Source: Spirosoma pollinicola (GTDB lineage: Bacteria; Bacteroidota; Bacteroidia; Cytophagales; Spirosomataceae). From it: DNA of 64,000 nt. Positions 56,231 to 63,046 of this stretch are shown here, one piece after another. The notes under the pieces were generated by a model. It did not search any database and was not told where the DNA came from. It saw nothing but the letters and a program-made list of their open reading frames with translations. The DNA lies in the NCBI RefSeq assembly GCF_002831565.1, contig NZ_CP025096.1, forward strand, positions 558,001 through 622,000. The letters run 5' to 3'. The translations under genes were made by a program, and so were the position numbers. How positions within the stretch are numbered: position 1 is the stretch's first letter; each line of letters begins with the position of its first letter.

Positions 56231-56290
56231 AAAAACGCTCATAAATGAGACAGGGGAACATTCAGCTATTTGACTCGACAATACGGGCGT
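56231..56290 (+). repeat. 60-bp direct repeat, left copy
   Basis: 57 of 60 bases match 62821-62880 in the same orientation; similarity stops sharply on both sides. It contains CTCATAAATGAG, a small palindrome, and ends ACAATACGGGCGT. Confidence 0.88.
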
Positions 56291-56646
56291 TTGACTAGCC
56301 ACTCATATCTTTGGTTCGGGCCACCACGCTGAATCTGGTATTCGGAGAAACCTTTATAGGCTCAGGGCTACGGATAGCCAGGTCGCCCGGGAGCCGTACC
56401 TGACATACGCTCTAAGGCAACACTTTATAGCTTACCGAAGCAGCAAGACAAGTAGCTTACATTTTTCTAAAACTAATTAGCTAAACCTGGAAACAATAGT
56501 ACAAATCAGACCGAAAAGCATATGGCATTGTCGACGCCATGATTTGTTGGCTGATGGTTGGTAAGTGACTATTGGTACCTGATAATAAATCGTTTCAAGT
56601 CTACTCACTAATCACCCATAACGTCCCATGTGCTACCGGGACGTTG

Positions 56647-56714
56647 TTGATCTAGGTCAATAGTTTTTATTACCATACCTCAATGGCTGGCCGAGCTGGG
56701 CAATCGTAAGTTTG
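56647..56714 (+). promoter_or_regulatory. FNR-type box and promoter of the pirin gene
   Basis: TTGATCTAGGTCAA (56647-56660) fits TTGAT-N4-ATCAA with one mismatch. CATACCTCAATG follows 20.5 bp from the box centre, and the -7 TAAGTTTG is at 56707-56714. Box centre to predicted start is about 64 bp, close to a class I activator position. A leader hairpin (TTGTTCCT/AGGAACAA, 56712-56734) ends 4 bp before the ATG. Confidence 0.6.
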
Positions 56715-56738
56715 TTCCTCAATAAAAGGAACAACGTA

Positions 56739-57602
56739 ATGAGAAAAAGGACCATTGCCAGCCTGTATACACCGCCTGACGAACGCGGCTTTCTGGGGGC
56801 TGGTCATATAGCACGTAGTGTTTTGACCGGCGGTTTTCAAAAAACAGATCCGTTTATTTTCCTGATGGACGACTGGCTGGATAAGAAAAATGACGAACCC
56901 GCCGGTGGCCCTCATCCCCACGCCGGTTTTGAAACGGTGTCTCTTCTGATTGATGGGGAAATAAAGGAAATGCTGGAGTCCATGAAAAAGGGGGACTTTC
57001 AGATCATGACGGCTGGTAGCGGTACGATCCACACCGAAACCATAGAAGGCCCCACAAAAGGGCGTTTGTTTCAACTATGGCTGAACCTGCCCCGCAAAGA
57101 CCGCCAGGCTACACCACGTATTCAGATTCTACCCGCCGAACATGTTCCGGTGGTAAACAAAGAGGGCGTGTACATGCGGCTGTACAGCGGTTCACTGGCC
57201 GGTATCCAATCACCCATACAACATTACACACCGCTCATTGTCGCCGAGTTTGAGCTGCAAGCAGGCGTTGGCACTAGCGTTCAGTTGCCGGCCAACTTTA
57301 ACACGTTTCTCTATGTCATCAGCGGTTCCCTACAAATCGCGGGTAAAGACATAAACCACGATCAGGTAGCCTGGCTGGATGTAGTCGATACCGAAGAAGA
57401 CAGCCAACTGACGATGCAGGCGAGCGAACAGGGGGTGCGTTTTGTGCTGTATGCGGCCAAGCCAACCCACGAGGCCATTGTTTCCTACGGGCCTTTCATC
57501 GCCGACACCCAGGCTGAGATTACCGACCTGTACAAACAATACCGAAGCGGGGCCATGAAGCACATCGCCACCGTACCGGAAGCACAGAAACTGACCTATT
57601 AA
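56739..57602 (+). CDS. Pirin family protein
   Basis: 287 aa from the ATG at 56739. Cupin ligands conserved as in other pirins: GGPHPHAGFETV and SGTIHTETIEG. Clear paralogue of the pirin at 32.9 kb along the full length. First gene of the FNR-boxed cluster; the next gene follows after 16 bp. Probably an iron-binding protein acting on aromatic or quinone-like compounds (family knowledge). Confidence 0.9.
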   Translation: MRKRTIASLYTPPDERGFLGAGHIARSVLTGGFQKTDPFIFLMDDWLDKKNDEPAGGPHPHAGFETVSLLIDGEIKEMLESMKKGDFQIMTAGSGTIHTETIEGPTKGRLFQLWLNLPRKDRQATPRIQILPAEHVPVVNKEGVYMRLYSGSLAGIQSPIQHYTPLIVAEFELQAGVGTSVQLPANFNTFLYVISGSLQIAGKDINHDQVAWLDVVDTEEDSQLTMQASEQGVRFVLYAAKPTHEAIVSYGPFIADTQAEITDLYKQYRSGAMKHIATVPEAQKLTY

Positions 57603-57618
57603 TTTTTACACAACAAGC

Positions 57619-58230
57619 ATGAGTTACACAATTGGCATTATCGGTTCAGGCCATATCGGGCGTGGACTGGCTACACATTTAGCAAAAACAACTTACCCGG
57701 TGCTGATCACCAACCGCCGGGGACCAGCGTCGTTGACAGACTTGGTGACTTCCATTGGCGGATCGTTGAGGGCCGCCGACTTTACCCAAACCATTGCCCA
57801 GGCCGACGTTTTGTTCATCGCCGTCCCCTGGTCACAGCTATCGGATCTGGCCAGCCAACTACAGGGGCATAATGGGAAGATTTTGGTCGACGCCACTAAT
57901 AATATTCTGTCGGTCAGCCCTTTCCAACTGGCTGATACCGCGGGCAAACCAACGGGTGAACACGTAGCGGCCCTGTTTCAGACCCATCGGGTCGTTAAAG
58001 CGTTCAATACCCTGGCGGCTGCTACCTTGGCTCAGCCTTCACAAAGCGGTATTGGAAATACAGTCATTGTTATCAGTGGTGATGATGGCGATGCGAAAAA
58101 ACAAGTAGCCGACATTACCAAAGCAATGAGTTTTGAACCGATTGATTTGGGCACGTTCAGGCAGGGCGGCCACCTTCAGGATGTGGGCGGGGCCTTGTCC
58201 GGGATTGAACTTATTAAGGTAAACCGGTAA
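57619..58230 (+). CDS. NADP-dependent F420-reductase-like oxidoreductase
   Basis: 203 aa Rossmann protein: MSYTIGIIGSGHIGRGLATH has the GxGxxG motif; AVPWSQLSDLASQL and VVKAFNTLAAATLAQPS match the family of NADP oxidoreductases (coenzyme F420-dependent type, COG2085). The F420 requirement is not implied in this phylum. Coupled to the pirin gene by a 16-bp gap. Confidence 0.88.
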   Translation: MSYTIGIIGSGHIGRGLATHLAKTTYPVLITNRRGPASLTDLVTSIGGSLRAADFTQTIAQADVLFIAVPWSQLSDLASQLQGHNGKILVDATNNILSVSPFQLADTAGKPTGEHVAALFQTHRVVKAFNTLAAATLAQPSQSGIGNTVIVISGDDGDAKKQVADITKAMSFEPIDLGTFRQGGHLQDVGGALSGIELIKVNR

Positions 58231-58293
58231 GCAACTGACTACGCCAGCAGTAGTACAAGGCCATCATTAATCAGTAGACAACGCGCGTCATTC

Positions 58294-58575
58294 ATGGACA
58301 TTCAGCATAAAGACAACGGACATAAGGGACTGTTTTACGTAGCGGTAGACGGTAAAACAGAAGCCGAAATGACCTATGTATGGTCGGGCGATCAACGAAT
58401 CATCATCGACCATACCGGCGTAAGCGAAGCCCTCAAAGGCGAGGGTATTGGCAAACAACTGGTGCAGGCAGCCGTTGTCTGGGCGCGGGGAAAACAGCTG
58501 AAAATTCTGCCGCTCTGTCCCTTTGCCCGAGCTATATTTGATAAAACGCCTGACTATCAGGATGTACTGTTTTAA
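58294..58575 (+). CDS. Small GNAT-like N-acetyltransferase (YjdJ type)
   Basis: 93 aa. GNAT core: MTYVWSGDQRIIIDHTGVSE then ALKGEGIGKQLVQAAVVWAR with the acetyl-CoA loop, and LCPFARAIFDKTPDYQDVL. Matches the short YjdJ/GNAT family. Third gene of the cluster. Confidence 0.85.
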   Translation: MDIQHKDNGHKGLFYVAVDGKTEAEMTYVWSGDQRIIIDHTGVSEALKGEGIGKQLVQAAVVWARGKQLKILPLCPFARAIFDKTPDYQDVLF

Positions 58576-58613
58576 CGGGCGAAACCAATAAGTGGGATAT
58601 ACGGTCAGGTTTC

Positions 58614-58681
58614 GTTGATGTACATCAACAGTGCTTTTTATCATACCTCAATGCCTGCCGCTTTCCGGGGCGCTAATTTTG
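58614..58681 (+). promoter_or_regulatory. FNR-type box and promoter of the esterase-SDR operon
   Basis: GTTGATGTACATCAAC (58614-58629) is a perfect TTGAT-N4-ATCAA palindrome. CATACCTCAATG (58642-58653) starts 20.5 bp from its centre, as in the pirin promoter. The -7 TAATTTTG is at 58674-58681, giving a box position near -63. Confidence 0.68.
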
Positions 58682-58740
58682 TCGCGTCCCAAAAGGGATT
58701 ACCAGTTTCAACATCTTCACAAACTTAACGGCTATAAACA

Positions 58741-59733
58741 ATGAGTAGCACGGCACAGGAGCGCCCGTTTAAAGGCGAGCAGGACCCACAGATTTTTTCA
58801 GAGGTTAGAACATTTTTGCAGGCATTGAATGCAGGCGATGGGAAGCCCGTGGAAGCCTTAAGCCCCGCCGATGCCCGGCAGGTATTGACCGGTGCTCAGC
58901 AATCGGTCGAGGTCGATTACTCGGGTATTACCGAGACCGAAAAAACGATCTCACAGAACGGCTACCAGGTAAACGTTCACATCGTAAAGCCCGAACAGAG
59001 TCAGGATGGTGCACCGGTGTTCCTCTTCATCCACGGGGGAGGCTGGGTGCTAGGCGACTACCCGACCCACCGACGAATCGTGCGTGATCTGGTAGTGCAC
59101 AGTGGTGCTGTGGCCGTTTTCCCCGATTATACGCCTTCGCCCGAAGCGCAGTACCCAACGGCTATCAACGAGATTTACGCCACCCTGCAATGGGTAGCTG
59201 AACATGGCGCTGAAATAGGGGTGGATGGCAGCAACATGGCCGTTGTCGGCAACAGTGTTGGTGGTAATATGTCGGCGGTGGTGGCCTTGATGGCTAAACG
59301 CAACAACGGTCCCAAACTCAAATTACAGGTGCTGCTGTGGCCCGTTACCAATGCCGATTTTGATACCGGCTCGTACAACCTGTTTGCCAGCGGTCGGTTC
59401 CTCACCAAAAACATGATGAAGTGGTTTTGGGATAACTACCTGCCCGACACCACTAAGCGCAACGAGATCTATGCATCACCCCTCCAAGCTACTGCCGAGG
59501 AGTTGACAGGCTTGCCACCAGCGCTGGTACAAACTGCCGAAAACGATGTATTGCGGGATGAGGGCGAAGCCTATGCCCGTAAGCTGAACGAAGCGGGTGT
59601 GCCGGTAACCCACACTCGGTATGGTGGTTTGATTCACGACTACGGCCTGCTGAATCCCATTGCCACCGTGCCGGCAGTACAAACGGCTATGTTGCAGGCA
59701 GCTGCAGTGATCAAAGCGGCTTTAAAGGCCTAA
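58741..59733 (+). CDS. Alpha/beta hydrolase, hormone-sensitive-lipase-like esterase
   Basis: 330 aa. HSL-family motif HGGGWVLGDY at the oxyanion hole, nucleophile elbow GNSVGGN, acid in AENDVLRDEG and base in GGLIHDYGLL. No signal peptide is seen. Acts on short-chain esters; natural substrate unknown. 32 bp before the SDR gene. Confidence 0.9.
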   Translation: MSSTAQERPFKGEQDPQIFSEVRTFLQALNAGDGKPVEALSPADARQVLTGAQQSVEVDYSGITETEKTISQNGYQVNVHIVKPEQSQDGAPVFLFIHGGGWVLGDYPTHRRIVRDLVVHSGAVAVFPDYTPSPEAQYPTAINEIYATLQWVAEHGAEIGVDGSNMAVVGNSVGGNMSAVVALMAKRNNGPKLKLQVLLWPVTNADFDTGSYNLFASGRFLTKNMMKWFWDNYLPDTTKRNEIYASPLQATAEELTGLPPALVQTAENDVLRDEGEAYARKLNEAGVPVTHTRYGGLIHDYGLLNPIATVPAVQTAMLQAAAVIKAALKA

Positions 59734-59765
59734 ACGTCTCAAAAAAATAGAAACGAAGAAATACC

Positions 59766-60512
59766 ATGACTAAACTTCAGGGAAAGGTCGCTTTTGTTAC
59801 CGGCGGTAGCCGGGGAATTGGTGCGGGCATTGTAAAACGGTTAGCCGAAGAAGGGGCCAGTGTTGCCTTCACCTATGTCAGTTCACGAGAGAAAGCAGAA
59901 AAACTGGCCACTGAAAGTCAATCCCTGGGTGTCAATGTGCTGGCGATCAAAGCGGATACCAGCAGTGATGCAGAAATTGATGCGGCCATTAAATCAGTAG
60001 TCGATACGTTCGGGCGTATCGACATCGTCGTCAACAGTGCCGGCTTATTTATCACCGGCACCATCGATGCTGCCGAAGCCGATGTAGTGGCCTTCAAGAA
60101 ACAGTGGGAGGTCAATGTGCATGGCGTCGTGCATACCGTTCGTACGGCATTGCCGTATATGGGTACTGGCGGCCGGATCATCAGCATTGGCTCTACCGGC
60201 GGCAGTCGCTCGGCTTATGCGGGTATAGGTGATTATGCGGCTACAAAAGCGGCCCTCGCGGCCTACACCCGTAGCTGGGCCCGGGATCTGGGCAGCAAAA
60301 ACATCACCGCAAACATCATACAGCCGGGGCTGATCGACACCGACATGAATCCGGCCGATGGTCCGTACAGTTCGTCCATGCTGCAATCCGTAGCCCTGGG
60401 GCGGTATGGTAACCCGACGGACATTGGCGCTGCGGTGGCCTTCCTGGCGAGCGATGACGCTCAATACATCACCGGTATAACGCTGAACGTAGACGGGGGC
60501 CAAACCACGTGA
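59766..60512 (+). CDS. Short-chain dehydrogenase/reductase (FabG-like)
   Basis: 248 aa. TGGSRGIGAG cofactor loop, NSAG at about 90, YAATK catalytic pair, and C-terminal YITGITLNVDGG. Same transcript as the esterase. Together they could hydrolyse and reduce an ester or carbonyl compound (inference). Confidence 0.92.
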   Translation: MTKLQGKVAFVTGGSRGIGAGIVKRLAEEGASVAFTYVSSREKAEKLATESQSLGVNVLAIKADTSSDAEIDAAIKSVVDTFGRIDIVVNSAGLFITGTIDAAEADVVAFKKQWEVNVHGVVHTVRTALPYMGTGGRIISIGSTGGSRSAYAGIGDYAATKAALAAYTRSWARDLGSKNITANIIQPGLIDTDMNPADGPYSSSMLQSVALGRYGNPTDIGAAVAFLASDDAQYITGITLNVDGGQTT

Positions 60513-60524
60513 TGCGTGCTCTTT

Positions 60525-60570
60525 GTTGATGTACATCAACGTTTTGCATCGACGGCAACGCGTACTTTTG
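60525..60570 (+). promoter_or_regulatory. FNR-type box and promoter of the NTF2-NmrA operon
   Basis: GTTGATGTACATCAAC (60525-60540), the same perfect palindrome as at 58614. TTTG at 60543-60546 and -7 TACTTTTG at 60563-60570 follow; a start near 60574 places the box centre at about -41, the class II position. Confidence 0.68.
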
Positions 60571-60582
60571 GGTAGCAAGACA

Positions 60583-60633
60583 CACGAAGCTGTTTGCGTT
60601 GAGCGCAAAGCGCTCAACGCAAACAGCTTCGTG
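60583..60633. repeat. Perfect 24-bp hairpin with AAA loop in the NTF2 leader
   Basis: Arms 60583-60606 and 60610-60633 are exact complements (start CACGAAGCTGTTTGCGTTGA). It begins about 9 nt after the predicted transcription start and ends 32 nt before the ATG at 60666. No T-tract follows. Confidence 0.85.
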
Positions 60634-60665
60634 CAATGTTAAGAAACGAACGAGCCAGATTCCCT

Positions 60666-61025
60666 ATGGATACCCAGTTATTGAATACGCTCCAGCAAAC
60701 CCACCTGGCTGTCTGGAACGAGAAAGACCGTACAACGCGTGACGCACTGATGCAAACCATCTATGCCGACGATATAAAAATGTACGACAAGGCGTTTATC
60801 CTGAGCGGCAGCGCAGCCGTTTCTGATTTTATCGATACGCTGTTTGCGGGTGATGCCAATTTTACCTTCACCATAGCAAAACCGATGGAAAGCACCCAGC
60901 ATGGAGCCCGCCTATACTGGGAAATACGGACCGGCCCCCAGCCGAATGTCCTGACCGGCATGGATTTTTTTGTGGTAGAAAAGGAGAAAGTAGCGCATCT
61001 GTTTGTATTCATGGATGCTCAATAA
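60666..61025 (+). CDS. NTF2-like (SnoaL-type) protein
   Basis: 119 aa from the ATG at 60666 (MDTQLLNTLQQTHLAVWNEK); no signal peptide, unlike the secreted relatives elsewhere in the window. TRDALMQTIYADDIKMYDKA and LTGMDFFVVEKEKVAHLFVF fit a SnoaL-like barrel. Small-molecule binding or isomerase-like; unknown. Lies 33 bp before the NmrA-like gene. Confidence 0.85.
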   Translation: MDTQLLNTLQQTHLAVWNEKDRTTRDALMQTIYADDIKMYDKAFILSGSAAVSDFIDTLFAGDANFTFTIAKPMESTQHGARLYWEIRTGPQPNVLTGMDFFVVEKEKVAHLFVFMDAQ

Positions 61026-61058
61026 AGGGAGGTTAAATCACCAAAAGTAATTCGCAAA

Positions 61059-61913
61059 ATGACCGTAAAACCCGTAATCCTGGTTACCGGAGCCACCGGT
61101 AACCAGGGCCGTGCTGTCACAAAAAGCCTGCTGGAGCAGGGTGAATTTACGGTTCGTGCCCTGGTTCGGAACAAGGCGAGCGAGAAAGCCAACGCGCTGG
61201 AGACGTTGGGCGCCGAGTTAGTCGCCGGTGATTATGAGGACCTGGCGTCACTGGAAAACGCACTACAGGGCGTCTGGGGTGTATTTTCCATGCAGGATTT
61301 TGCCCACGGTGTCGATGCGGAAGTTAATCAGGGAAAAACAGTAGCTGATCTGGCTAAAAAAGTGGGCGTTAGGCAGTTTGTTTATTCGTCTGTGGGAAGT
61401 GCCAATCGCCATACGGGTATTCCGCATTTTGACAGCAAGTACCAGATAGAAGCGTATATCCGGGCAATCGGGTTGCCGTATACCATCCTGCGCCCTGTCT
61501 ACTTCATGTACAATTACAGGAACATGCAGGCCATGATTGATGATGGCCTGATTGCTTTGCCCCTAAGCCCCGACACGAAACTACAGCAATTATCCGAGGC
61601 CGATTATGGCAACATGGTGGCGACCGTGTTTGCTGATAGCGCCCGTTTTTTAGGAAAAGAACTAGACCTGGCCAGTGTAAGTATCTCAATGACTGAGCTG
61701 GCAGCAACCTTAAGCGAAGTACTCAACAAACCCGTGCGGTACCAGCAACTTTCGCTTGACCGTTTCCGTGAACAGGCCGGTGACGAGATGAGTCTGATGT
61801 TTAGCTGGTTTGAATCGGTTGGCTATAGTGCCAACCTAGCGGAATTGGAAACGATGTTCTTTCCACTCTCATCGGTGGATGCGTACCTGGTCCACCATTG
61901 GGAAACTACCTGA
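61059..61913 (+). CDS. NmrA-like NAD(P)-binding protein
   Basis: 284 aa. GATGNQGRAV is the NmrA nucleotide motif, followed by VRALVRNKAS and the conserved QFVYSSVGSANR and LPYTILRPVYFMYN. Atypical SDR without a classical YxxxK; QdoR- or HSCARG-like members sense redox or act as reductases. Last gene before the regulator. Confidence 0.88.
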   Translation: MTVKPVILVTGATGNQGRAVTKSLLEQGEFTVRALVRNKASEKANALETLGAELVAGDYEDLASLENALQGVWGVFSMQDFAHGVDAEVNQGKTVADLAKKVGVRQFVYSSVGSANRHTGIPHFDSKYQIEAYIRAIGLPYTILRPVYFMYNYRNMQAMIDDGLIALPLSPDTKLQQLSEADYGNMVATVFADSARFLGKELDLASVSISMTELAATLSEVLNKPVRYQQLSLDRFREQAGDEMSLMFSWFESVGYSANLAELETMFFPLSSVDAYLVHHWETT

Positions 61914-61976
61914 TGGGTTGGATTATAACGCAATAAAGTCGTCACCCTGCCCGGCCATGCGTTGATTGACACTGAA

Positions 61977-62573
61977 TCAGCTTGCTTTTTTCAGATGTTG
62001 ATGGCGAATGCGGCTCAGCGTTTCTTTGGTTATACCCAGGTAAGATGCGATAATATGCTGGGGAAAACGCTGCAGGAATTCGGGATATAGTTTAGTCAAC
62101 TCCTCATAGCGGTAATCGGCCGTGTAGTTTTGGGCCATGTTCAGGCGTTTTTGAACTGCCATGTGCTGGTTATCATCCAGCTTTATCCGCATTTCGTTGA
62201 AGGCCGGAATGGTATTAACGCGTTCGTAATAGCCATTTGCCTTGGGCAGTAAGAGCAACTCGGTTTCTTCCCAGGCATCTATGTTGTAAATAGACGGTGT
62301 TTCTTTATGAAAGCTCTCCCGGTCCGACGTCCACCAGTTTTCGATGCATAAATTGAGCACGTGCTCATACCCTTTTTCGTCGACCGTATATTGCCGGGTG
62401 GCTCCCTTCACAATGAAGGCGATGTATTTACAGACTTCACCTTCCTGCAGCAGGAATTGCCGCTTTCTTAATTTTTTGGGGATGAACGCTTCCTCCAGCA
62501 GGCTGATATCGGTTTCGGAAAGTGGTATGGTGGAGCGTTCTTGTATATATTGTATAAGTGGATTAACCATCAA
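61977..62573 (-). CDS. Crp/Fnr-family transcriptional regulator
   Basis: 198 aa. cNMP-binding-like domain (about 20-110) and a C-terminal winged helix. Recognition helix ASYLGITKETLSRIRHQ has E184-T-L-S187-R188, the same E-x-x-S-R that FNR uses for TTGAT half-sites. The N-terminal cysteine set of iron-sulfur FNR is absent, and Cys48/Cys76 do not form that pattern, so the signal is something else. It converges on the cluster it probably controls. Confidence 0.9.
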   Translation of the reverse strand: MMVNPLIQYIQERSTIPLSETDISLLEEAFIPKKLRKRQFLLQEGEVCKYIAFIVKGATRQYTVDEKGYEHVLNLCIENWWTSDRESFHKETPSIYNIDAWEETELLLLPKANGYYERVNTIPAFNEMRIKLDDNQHMAVQKRLNMAQNYTADYRYEELTKLYPEFLQRFPQHIIASYLGITKETLSRIRHQHLKKAS

Positions 62574-63046
62574 CCAGCGGACAAAGTAAAAAGTCTAAGA
62601 CAACGTTTCAGGTGCTAAAGATAGTAACTGGCAAAATAGGGTTTGCTGAAACGGAAAGTTATACAAACCGATGTCTGTCTTATTCTAACGATGTATCGGC
62701 GGTTGATAGGACGGGCTAATTATTATATCTGTCAATCATATACTGTATGCCTAAAGGCATATGCTAAGGATTGTGTTTGACAGTTATCAAAAATCAAACG
62801 ACCATCGTAACATATTCTCAAAAAACGCTCATACATGAGACAGGGCAATATTCAGCTATTTGACTCGACAATACGGGCGTCAAAAGAGATAACTTAATCA
62901 CTTTAAGATGAAATATCAAATACAAACAACCCTTTATCCCTGAAAGCTACCATTTGAGTAGTATGCTTTGCATAGTACTATGTTATTTATTTTAATTTGT
63001 TGAATAAATAATTTGTTGCCTTGCAAAATCTACATTAACAGCCTAG
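62574..63046. other. Intergenic stretch with the right 60-bp repeat
   Basis: 473 bp. Besides the repeat at 62821-62880 nothing coding is seen; no FNR-type box was found in front of the Crp/Fnr gene. AT content rises towards the CPBP gene start. Confidence 0.6.
62821..62880 (+). repeat. 60-bp direct repeat, right copy
   Basis: Matches 56231-56290 at 57 of 60 positions, same orientation, with unrelated flanks. The two copies enclose about 6.5 kb containing the whole FNR-boxed cluster and its regulator. Confidence 0.88.

Follow-up and report, generated by a model that had tools for sequence, protein, structure and literature searches.

Recognition residues of the form E..SR are characteristic of FNR, whereas the arginine of CRP reads TGTGA. 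In Escherichia coli, a CRP dimer is positioned near -41.5 at class II promoters, tandem (class III) promoters add an upstream dimer, and class I activators are found at -61.5 and further helical turns. The present analysis concerns a 64,000-nucleotide stretch of the Spirosoma pollinicola genome (the window; taken from a single contig of 8.79 Mb, with all coordinates given as positions in the window), in which three co-directional gene runs and one gene for a CRP/FNR-superfamily regulator facing them occupy positions 56646-62573. A TTGAY-N4-RTCAA box followed by a TAnnTTTG element stands at the head of each run, and the regulator (61977-62573, minus strand) is likely to act as the local activator of the three adjacent units. 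All evidence is computational, and the transcription starts are predictions. PMC4999443 gives TTGANCNNGATCAANG as the FixK/FnrN consensus and describes cysteines that hold an oxygen-sensitive iron-sulfur cluster as the mark of the Fnr branch. The locus shares with FNR the TTGAT-N4-ATCAA type of box and the E..SR recognition residues, but its regulator is devoid of iron-sulfur cysteines and adjoins its likely targets, which by Pfam are not respiratory genes.

An earlier note on this DNA had described three boxes of the FNR type. These were recovered as TTGATCTAGGTCAA at 56647, with one mismatch to TTGATN4ATCAA, and as two identical perfect copies of TTGATGTACATCAA at 58615 and 60526, nested in 16-mers starting at 58614 and 60525. 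The locus contains the TTGAT-N4-ATCAA palindrome at an activator position that defines an FNR-type operator. In promoter 1 (pirin), the distal box GTTGATCTAGGTCAAT (56646-56661, plus strand, as are all promoter elements listed here) has its centre 53.5 bp from the -7 element TAAGTTTG (56707-56714); strict boxes also precede the pirin gene in orthologous loci. In promoter 2 (esterase), the perfect palindrome GTTGATGTACATCAAC (58614-58629) is centred 52.5 bp from TAATTTTG (58674-58681), and in promoter 3 (SnoaL) a lone perfect box of the same sequence GTTGATGTACATCAAC (60525-60540) is centred 30.5 bp from TACTTTTG (60563-60570). TAnnTTTG sits at -12 to -5 in a mapped flavobacterial transcriptome (PMC9723704). 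With this placement, the box centres fall at about -65.5, -64.5 and -42.5, 1.5 bp from the values proposed before (about -64, -63 and -41); the last is a class II position and is kept in relatives. The sequence CATACCTCAATG, reported as common to the first two promoters, begins exactly 20.5 bp from both box centres. It looks like a portion of an additional, degenerate box, whose centre falls at about -42, 23 bp downstream from that of the distal one, namely ATTACCATACCTCAAT in promoter 1 (56669-56684, about -42.5), which contains most of CATACCTCAATG and whose 23-bp offset is common to relatives, and TTTATCATACCTCAAT in promoter 2 (58637-58652, about -41.5). By their sequence, the two promoters formerly placed at '-64' look like tandem-site rather than simple class I promoters. 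Measured against the class I positions of E. coli, a box acting alone near -65 would lie on the wrong face of the helix, and the tandem reading fits better. The arrangement would resemble the class II and tandem promoters of E. coli CRP in having one dimer near -41.5 and, in the tandems, a second one upstream, but differs from the latter in the site at about -65, the fixed 23-bp spacing, the degenerate proximal site and the Bacteroidota -7 element.

A search with the regulator yielded 80 loci from relatives (1.36 Mb), nearly all titled Bacteroidota and one titled 'bacterium'. Its closest named relatives belong to Spirosoma; seven genomes from this genus contain matches at 81-96% identity (four of these genomes, G025, G031, G026 and G007, were taken as the same records as loci L084, L085, L086 and L089), and an eighth contains an 82-residue fragment. 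The 80 loci contain 80 strict TTGAYN4RTCAA boxes, of which 53, spread over 47 loci, have the regulator at a distance of no more than 1 kb; as controls, 11 permuted half-sites gave 0-3 sites within 1 kb, and gaps other than 4 (0-10) gave 1-6. Of the boxes within 2.5 kb, 60/62 fall outside crudely called open reading frames, and the nearest gene start is 70-165 bp away for 52 of the 57 boxes with a called start within 350 bp. The first genes after the boxes (56 proteins) encode SnoaL_2 (15), pirin (9), short-chain dehydrogenase (5), DoxX_2 (4), isochorismatase (3), NmrA (2) and YceI (2) proteins. A pirin homologue is present somewhere in 40/80 loci, often at only 23-32% identity. Among orthologous loci (regulators of at least 81% identity), a box precedes the pirin gene in all seven with a full pirin (the window, L064, L069, L087, L088, L196 and L199), the esterase gene in 5/6 (the exception is L088, whose corresponding region has degenerated in the alignment) and the SnoaL gene in 9/11 (no strict box in L068 and L088). 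Gene order disintegrates across these loci while most boxes persist. In genome G026 the operon is split, with contig L196 (C7) carrying the part from pirin to a truncated NmrA gene and three boxes, and contig L067 (C8) carrying SnoaL with its box, an NmrA remnant and the regulator. Beyond the window unit, the combination of regulator and box is found in several Bacteroidota orders.

The two promoter forms recur in the relatives. For the 62 boxes located at most 2.5 kb from regulators, 26 TAnnTTTG elements lie downstream within about 150 bp, and 19/26 spacings cluster at 29.5-30.5 bp (8) or 50.5-53.5 bp (11), corresponding to about -42 and -65 under the placement from the flavobacterial data. 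Promoters of the far class have a further element in common, TTATCA-nnn-TCATCG, whose centre is exactly 23 bp away from the box and so coincides with the position of the near-class box. In 56 non-redundant promoters, for which a strict distal box together with a called gene start was the sole criterion of selection, TCA occurs at index 34 in 31/56 (mean 1.5 per position), CATCG at index 35 in 27/56 (mean 0.36) and TTTG at index 65 in 31/56 (mean 0.82). A box score of at least 7/10 was reached at +23 by 22/62 and at +16 by 11/62, with all other tested offsets at 6 or fewer. The most distinct tandem operators are those of L154 (9654-9692) and L147 (842-880), each with a pair of perfect boxes at a spacing of exactly 23 bp, and the proximal box has a perfect left half in promoters of L149, L158 and L162 that are devoid of a distal box. 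Relative to the -7 element, the proximal right half aligns with the right half of the near-class box. The form and position of the second box are thus backed by its offset, the perfect tandems and the left halves. The proximal element does not behave as a general -33 motif, being nearly absent from other TAnnTTTG sites: TCATCG is found at the proximal place in 5/1276 TAnnTTTG sites without a strict box within 150 bp versus 7/46 with one, and 7/9 background sites with CATCG at this place or 1 bp off resemble proximal boxes themselves.

In the window genome, the exact 16-mer GTTGATGTACATCAAC occurs at two places, both at the locus. Allowing up to three mismatches gave 72 places versus 32 for the reversed control, TTGATN4ATCAA 19 versus 4, and TTGAYN4RTCAA 65 versus 34. 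In the genome scan for the box that the earlier note had proposed, the exact 16-mer is confined to the locus, and TTGAY boxes also lie beside four other E-type paralogues, i.e. those with E at residue 184. At a one-mismatch box at genome position 731919 (L197), a search for the genes of the window listed none. A plain motif count in the window was discarded as evidence (6 hits with at most one mismatch versus 2.97 expected; 7/100 shuffles reach 6), and a fourth strict TTGAYN4RTCAA at 62776-62791, roughly 200 bp before the point where the regulator gene begins, is not kept in L064 and was taken as chance. With one query, 13 CRP/FNR paralogue matches were obtained in the window genome, and 1-28 in each of the 52 genomes, among 59, with any match. 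All five other ETLSR paralogues of the window genome have a symmetric box within 100 bp (four TTGAY; one GTGAY, with an RETLSR helix), while none of the seven paralogues with other helices has a TTGAY, TAGAY or GTGAY box within 400 bp. What had been called a self-contained regulon accordingly stands as a local regulator with its own boxes, a reading favoured by the unique 16-mer, the box enrichment in relatives, the conservation at the same genes and the coupling of helix and half-site described below; the term 'self-contained' is only partly apt, given the four ETLSR paralogues with TTGAY boxes.

A sequence model of 72 positions was prepared from 42 promoters, obtained from 52 by omitting L132, three promoters of L147, both sites of L145, the second site of L144, L156 and two promoters of L154; its E-values (expectation values) are approximate, and weak hits are missed by the stricter filtering applied over 40 genomes. 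At E ≤ 1e-3, the model produced 35 hits in 59 genomes, at least 4 of them training sites, with 30/35 within 6 kb and 19/35 within 300 bp of a listed regulator. The five remaining hits comprise two in the G026 operon copy that is displaced from its regulator, two additional sites of the same unit in G031, at distances of 6.6 and 9.7 kb, and one in G052, 6 bases after the end of a weak match to the regulator (28%).

The half-site letters follow residue 184 of the regulator. This residue is D in 15/81 regulators (80 loci plus the window). E was found with TTGAY in 48 rows and D with TAGAY in 12, in agreement for 60/60 assigned rows with no mixed case; the count covers the 60/81 regulators for which a symmetric box was assigned and E or D could be read, and leaves 21 regulators aside. 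In addition, a DNA-pattern search of 395 genomes matched 39 places, of which 34 loci were fetched. No regulator was present within 1.5 kb in 26/34, which are mostly noise; of the 8 with a regulator, 7 have a readable helix, and after exclusion of L213, which is identical to L098, all six loci new to the comparison agree with the rule (2 D, 4 E). Regulators with an RETLSR helix adjoin GTGAY-N4-RTCAC boxes in L140 (9581), L147 (6877; a GTGAC box 37 bp past the end of the regulator gene) and the window genome's own paralogue L025, giving three clean cases next to one imperfect one (L105). They possibly represent a third specificity class, as judged from these sequences, and the link matches the arginine reading of TGTGA in CRP.

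The regulator gene probably starts at the ATG at 62570. The recognition residues E184, S187 and R188 were named correctly before, in the numbering from the TTG start (183, 186 and 187 from the ATG), as was the absence of the FNR iron-sulfur cysteines, C48 and C76 being the only cysteines present. The N-terminal part is a beta-roll of the cyclic nucleotide monophosphate-binding type (PF00027, 35.3 bits versus a cutoff of 27.5), and the fold matches 3dn7 as well as FNR and CRP structures. The AlphaFold2 model (mean predicted local distance difference test score 95.5, predicted template modelling score 0.88) contains a C-terminal winged helix with ETLSR at 184-188, in a helix spanning residues 183-197; the Pfam scan of the regulator listed no hit to a helix-turn-helix model. 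The NCBIfam FNR model NF008365 gave 20.3 bits versus a cutoff of 228. Judged by its sequence, with the cluster cysteines missing and the curated model far from its cutoff, the regulator is not FNR. Its nearest solved relative, also by fold, is 3dn7, a cyclic nucleotide binding regulatory protein of Cytophaga hutchinsonii (E 1.4e-33; profile 2e-51), whose helix reads PEYLSEIRK instead of KETLSRIRH and which may not share the box. In an alignment of 71 rows (L118 shortened; L144, L145, L150, L152, L153, L156, L158, L161, L162 and L163 omitted), T185, L186, S187 and R188 are invariant, as are E78, W81, D84, E86 and S87; C48 is kept in 68/71 rows and C76 in 10/71. The latter five invariant residues together with C48 suggest a conserved effector site. 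The clade of the window protein (15 rows; Shimodaira-Hasegawa-like approximate likelihood ratio test 98) differs from the rest at residues 89, 90, 103, 110, 116, 119, 129 and 134, all outside the helix, which would fit a changed signal. A box preference for T/C6 and an NTAN centre exerted through helix residues was considered and dropped, as no clade-specific residue lies in the helix.

From the computed boxes, their positions, conservation and locality and the coupling of E/D184 to the half-site, we infer binding, activation, cooperativity and operon extents as follows, the signal being a guess. A dimer of the regulator would read GTTGATnTAnATCAAC at three targets, pirin-reductase-GNAT, esterase-SDR (short-chain dehydrogenase/reductase) and SnoaL-NmrA. 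For SnoaL, the single perfect box at about -42, placed as in class II promoters, would suffice. The pirin and esterase units would combine their perfect or near-perfect box near -65 with the degenerate box 23 bp downstream, at about -42; there, a second dimer would likely load cooperatively on the weak proximal site and then contact RNA polymerase. The effector would probably be a small molecule or redox cue arising from electrophile, quinone or oxygen stress, and the response would consist of induced oxidoreductases and small detoxification-type enzymes. Stress by reactive small molecules or a redox imbalance is what the gene content hints at, with SDR, NmrA, pirin and SnoaL genes at the locus and isochorismatase and DoxX genes among the relatives. 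Redox-linked pirins of Bacteroides fragilis rise on oxygen exposure (PMC11304471, accessible part); these are likewise Bacteroidota pirin genes, but that part of the source contains no link to a CRP/FNR protein or box.

Several results weigh against a local activator acting in this manner. A strict TTGAY box within 1 kb is lacking in 33/80 loci, and with one mismatch allowed the contrast becomes weaker (66/80 loci versus 13-41/80 for controls). Among the D-type loci, a TAGAY box lies within 1 kb in 10/15 and none was assigned in three (L122, L125 and L155), and the TTGAY boxes of L147 are probably due to a second regulator on its contig. In a tree built without residue 184, either trait requires three changes, only one of which is forced by starred branches; with three switches only, kinship limits the test of the coupling and a sign test cannot reach significance, while the Fisher value for the coupling ignores kinship altogether. 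The NTAN and T/C6 preferences of the clade are not accounted for by the recognition helix, which leaves the insulation from E-type paralogues unexplained. This last point bears on the possibility that the strict boxes are read mainly by one or more other E-type CRP/FNR paralogues, with the regulator as one member of a cross-talking network. The four ETLSR paralogues with a TTGAY box within 100 bp make such cross-talk possible, as they share the ETLSR core, and the clade-specific residues are located outside the helix. It is set against the restriction of the exact 16-mer to the locus, boxes that track the neighbouring regulator across genomes, a helix type that matches the adjacent box locus by locus, and genome G418, which has both TAGAY and TTGAY promoters, the TTGAY one without a regulator within 1.5 kb. 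We consider a shared network of this kind conceivable but rather unlikely.

It is improbable that the proximal TTATCAnnnTCATCG is a core-promoter (-33) motif or the motif of another factor, with the -65 box acting alone. The proximal element does overlap the -33 region, most promoters have only a weak left half in it, and the lesser box-like peak at +16 (for which the T-rich run and the ATCA within the TTATCA-nnn-TCATCG element are taken to be responsible) likewise speaks against a second box, but the element hardly occurs at other TAnnTTTG sites, coincides with the class II box position and takes the form of a box in the perfect tandems and left halves. The geometry alone is also compatible with repression, and a repressor releasing the genes on an electrophile or redox signal would suit a gene content that resembles derepression-controlled units, a -42 box that touches the -33 region, and 12 TAnnTTTG elements that precede a box by up to 160 bp (29.5 bp in one case, more than 95 bp in eleven). 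These 12 also mean that the activator geometry does not hold for every such element in the neighbourhood of a box. Repression is nonetheless distinctly improbable, as the -7 elements downstream of boxes cluster at two fixed spacings and, of the 62 boxes, none overlaps a TAnnTTTG and only one lies at most 95 bp downstream of one; fixed spacings without overlap are the pattern expected of activators. Very improbable, finally, is the view that the 6.5 kb of the unit were acquired as a cassette by horizontal transfer, the boxes having merely been inherited along with it and being silent on present function. Homology to the closest unit, L064, spans 56285-62793 only, ending within about 30 bp of a pair of 60-bp direct repeats, which suggests that the unit moved as a block, and its distribution is patchy; set against this, the boxes mostly persist as synteny breaks in other orthologous loci, including the displaced G026 copy.

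The likely targets of the proposed activator were confirmed by Pfam as assigned in the earlier note. Run 1 comprises genes for a pirin-family cupin (56739-57602; PF02678, PF05726), an F420-dependent NADP oxidoreductase-like protein (57619-58230; PF03807, NCBIfam npdG below cutoff) and a GNAT-type acetyltransferase (Acetyltransf_CG; 58294-58575; PF14542). Run 2 starts with an alpha/beta hydrolase, a hormone-sensitive-lipase-like esterase (58741-59733; PF07859, LipP1 model below cutoff), followed by an SDR protein (59766-60512; PF13561, PF00106). Run 3 encodes a SnoaL/NTF2-like protein (60636-61025; PF12680), whose true start may be the ATG at 60666, as an ATG is found there in several relatives, and an NmrA-like NAD(P)-binding protein (61059-61913; PF05368). 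All of these genes are on the plus strand; the regulator gene with its KETLSR recognition helix (PF00027; nearest structure 3dn7; AlphaFold2 model) is on the minus strand. The predicted SnoaL transcript would contain, from about +9, a perfect hairpin with 24-bp arms (60583-60633). Except for the match to its own reverse strand, the genome has no other copy of it. Hairpins at the same place, with paired stem differences, are found in L064 and L065, and L068 has an unrelated palindrome before SnoaL. As a shared regulatory part it was rejected, as ten other folded leaders have no equally strong hairpin. The 60-bp direct repeat, 95% identical, brackets the unit at 56231-56290 and 62821-62880; it has only these two copies in the genome and one weak match (75%) in relatives (39 genomes, own included).

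The superfamily and the box type were already known, and the promoter layout and the residue rule would be the new part; searches of an open-access library showed no report of the targets, promoter layout or residue rule of this type of regulator. Evenly balanced between acceptance and doubt is the wider proposal that Bacteroidota hold a large class of local CRP/FNR activators serving as private switches, with a stereotyped promoter in which the box near -65 is perfect and the one near -42 degenerate, a helix code in which K-E specifies TTGAY, K-D TAGAY and R-E GTGAY, and, in the clade of the window protein, a reactive-electrophile or quinone-type signal sensed through the beta-roll pocket. 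A fixed two-box promoter combined with a residue-to-base rule would allow targets to be predicted from sequence alone, and the pairing of a strong distal with a weak proximal box would provide a natural test case for cooperative activation on a Bacteroidota promoter.

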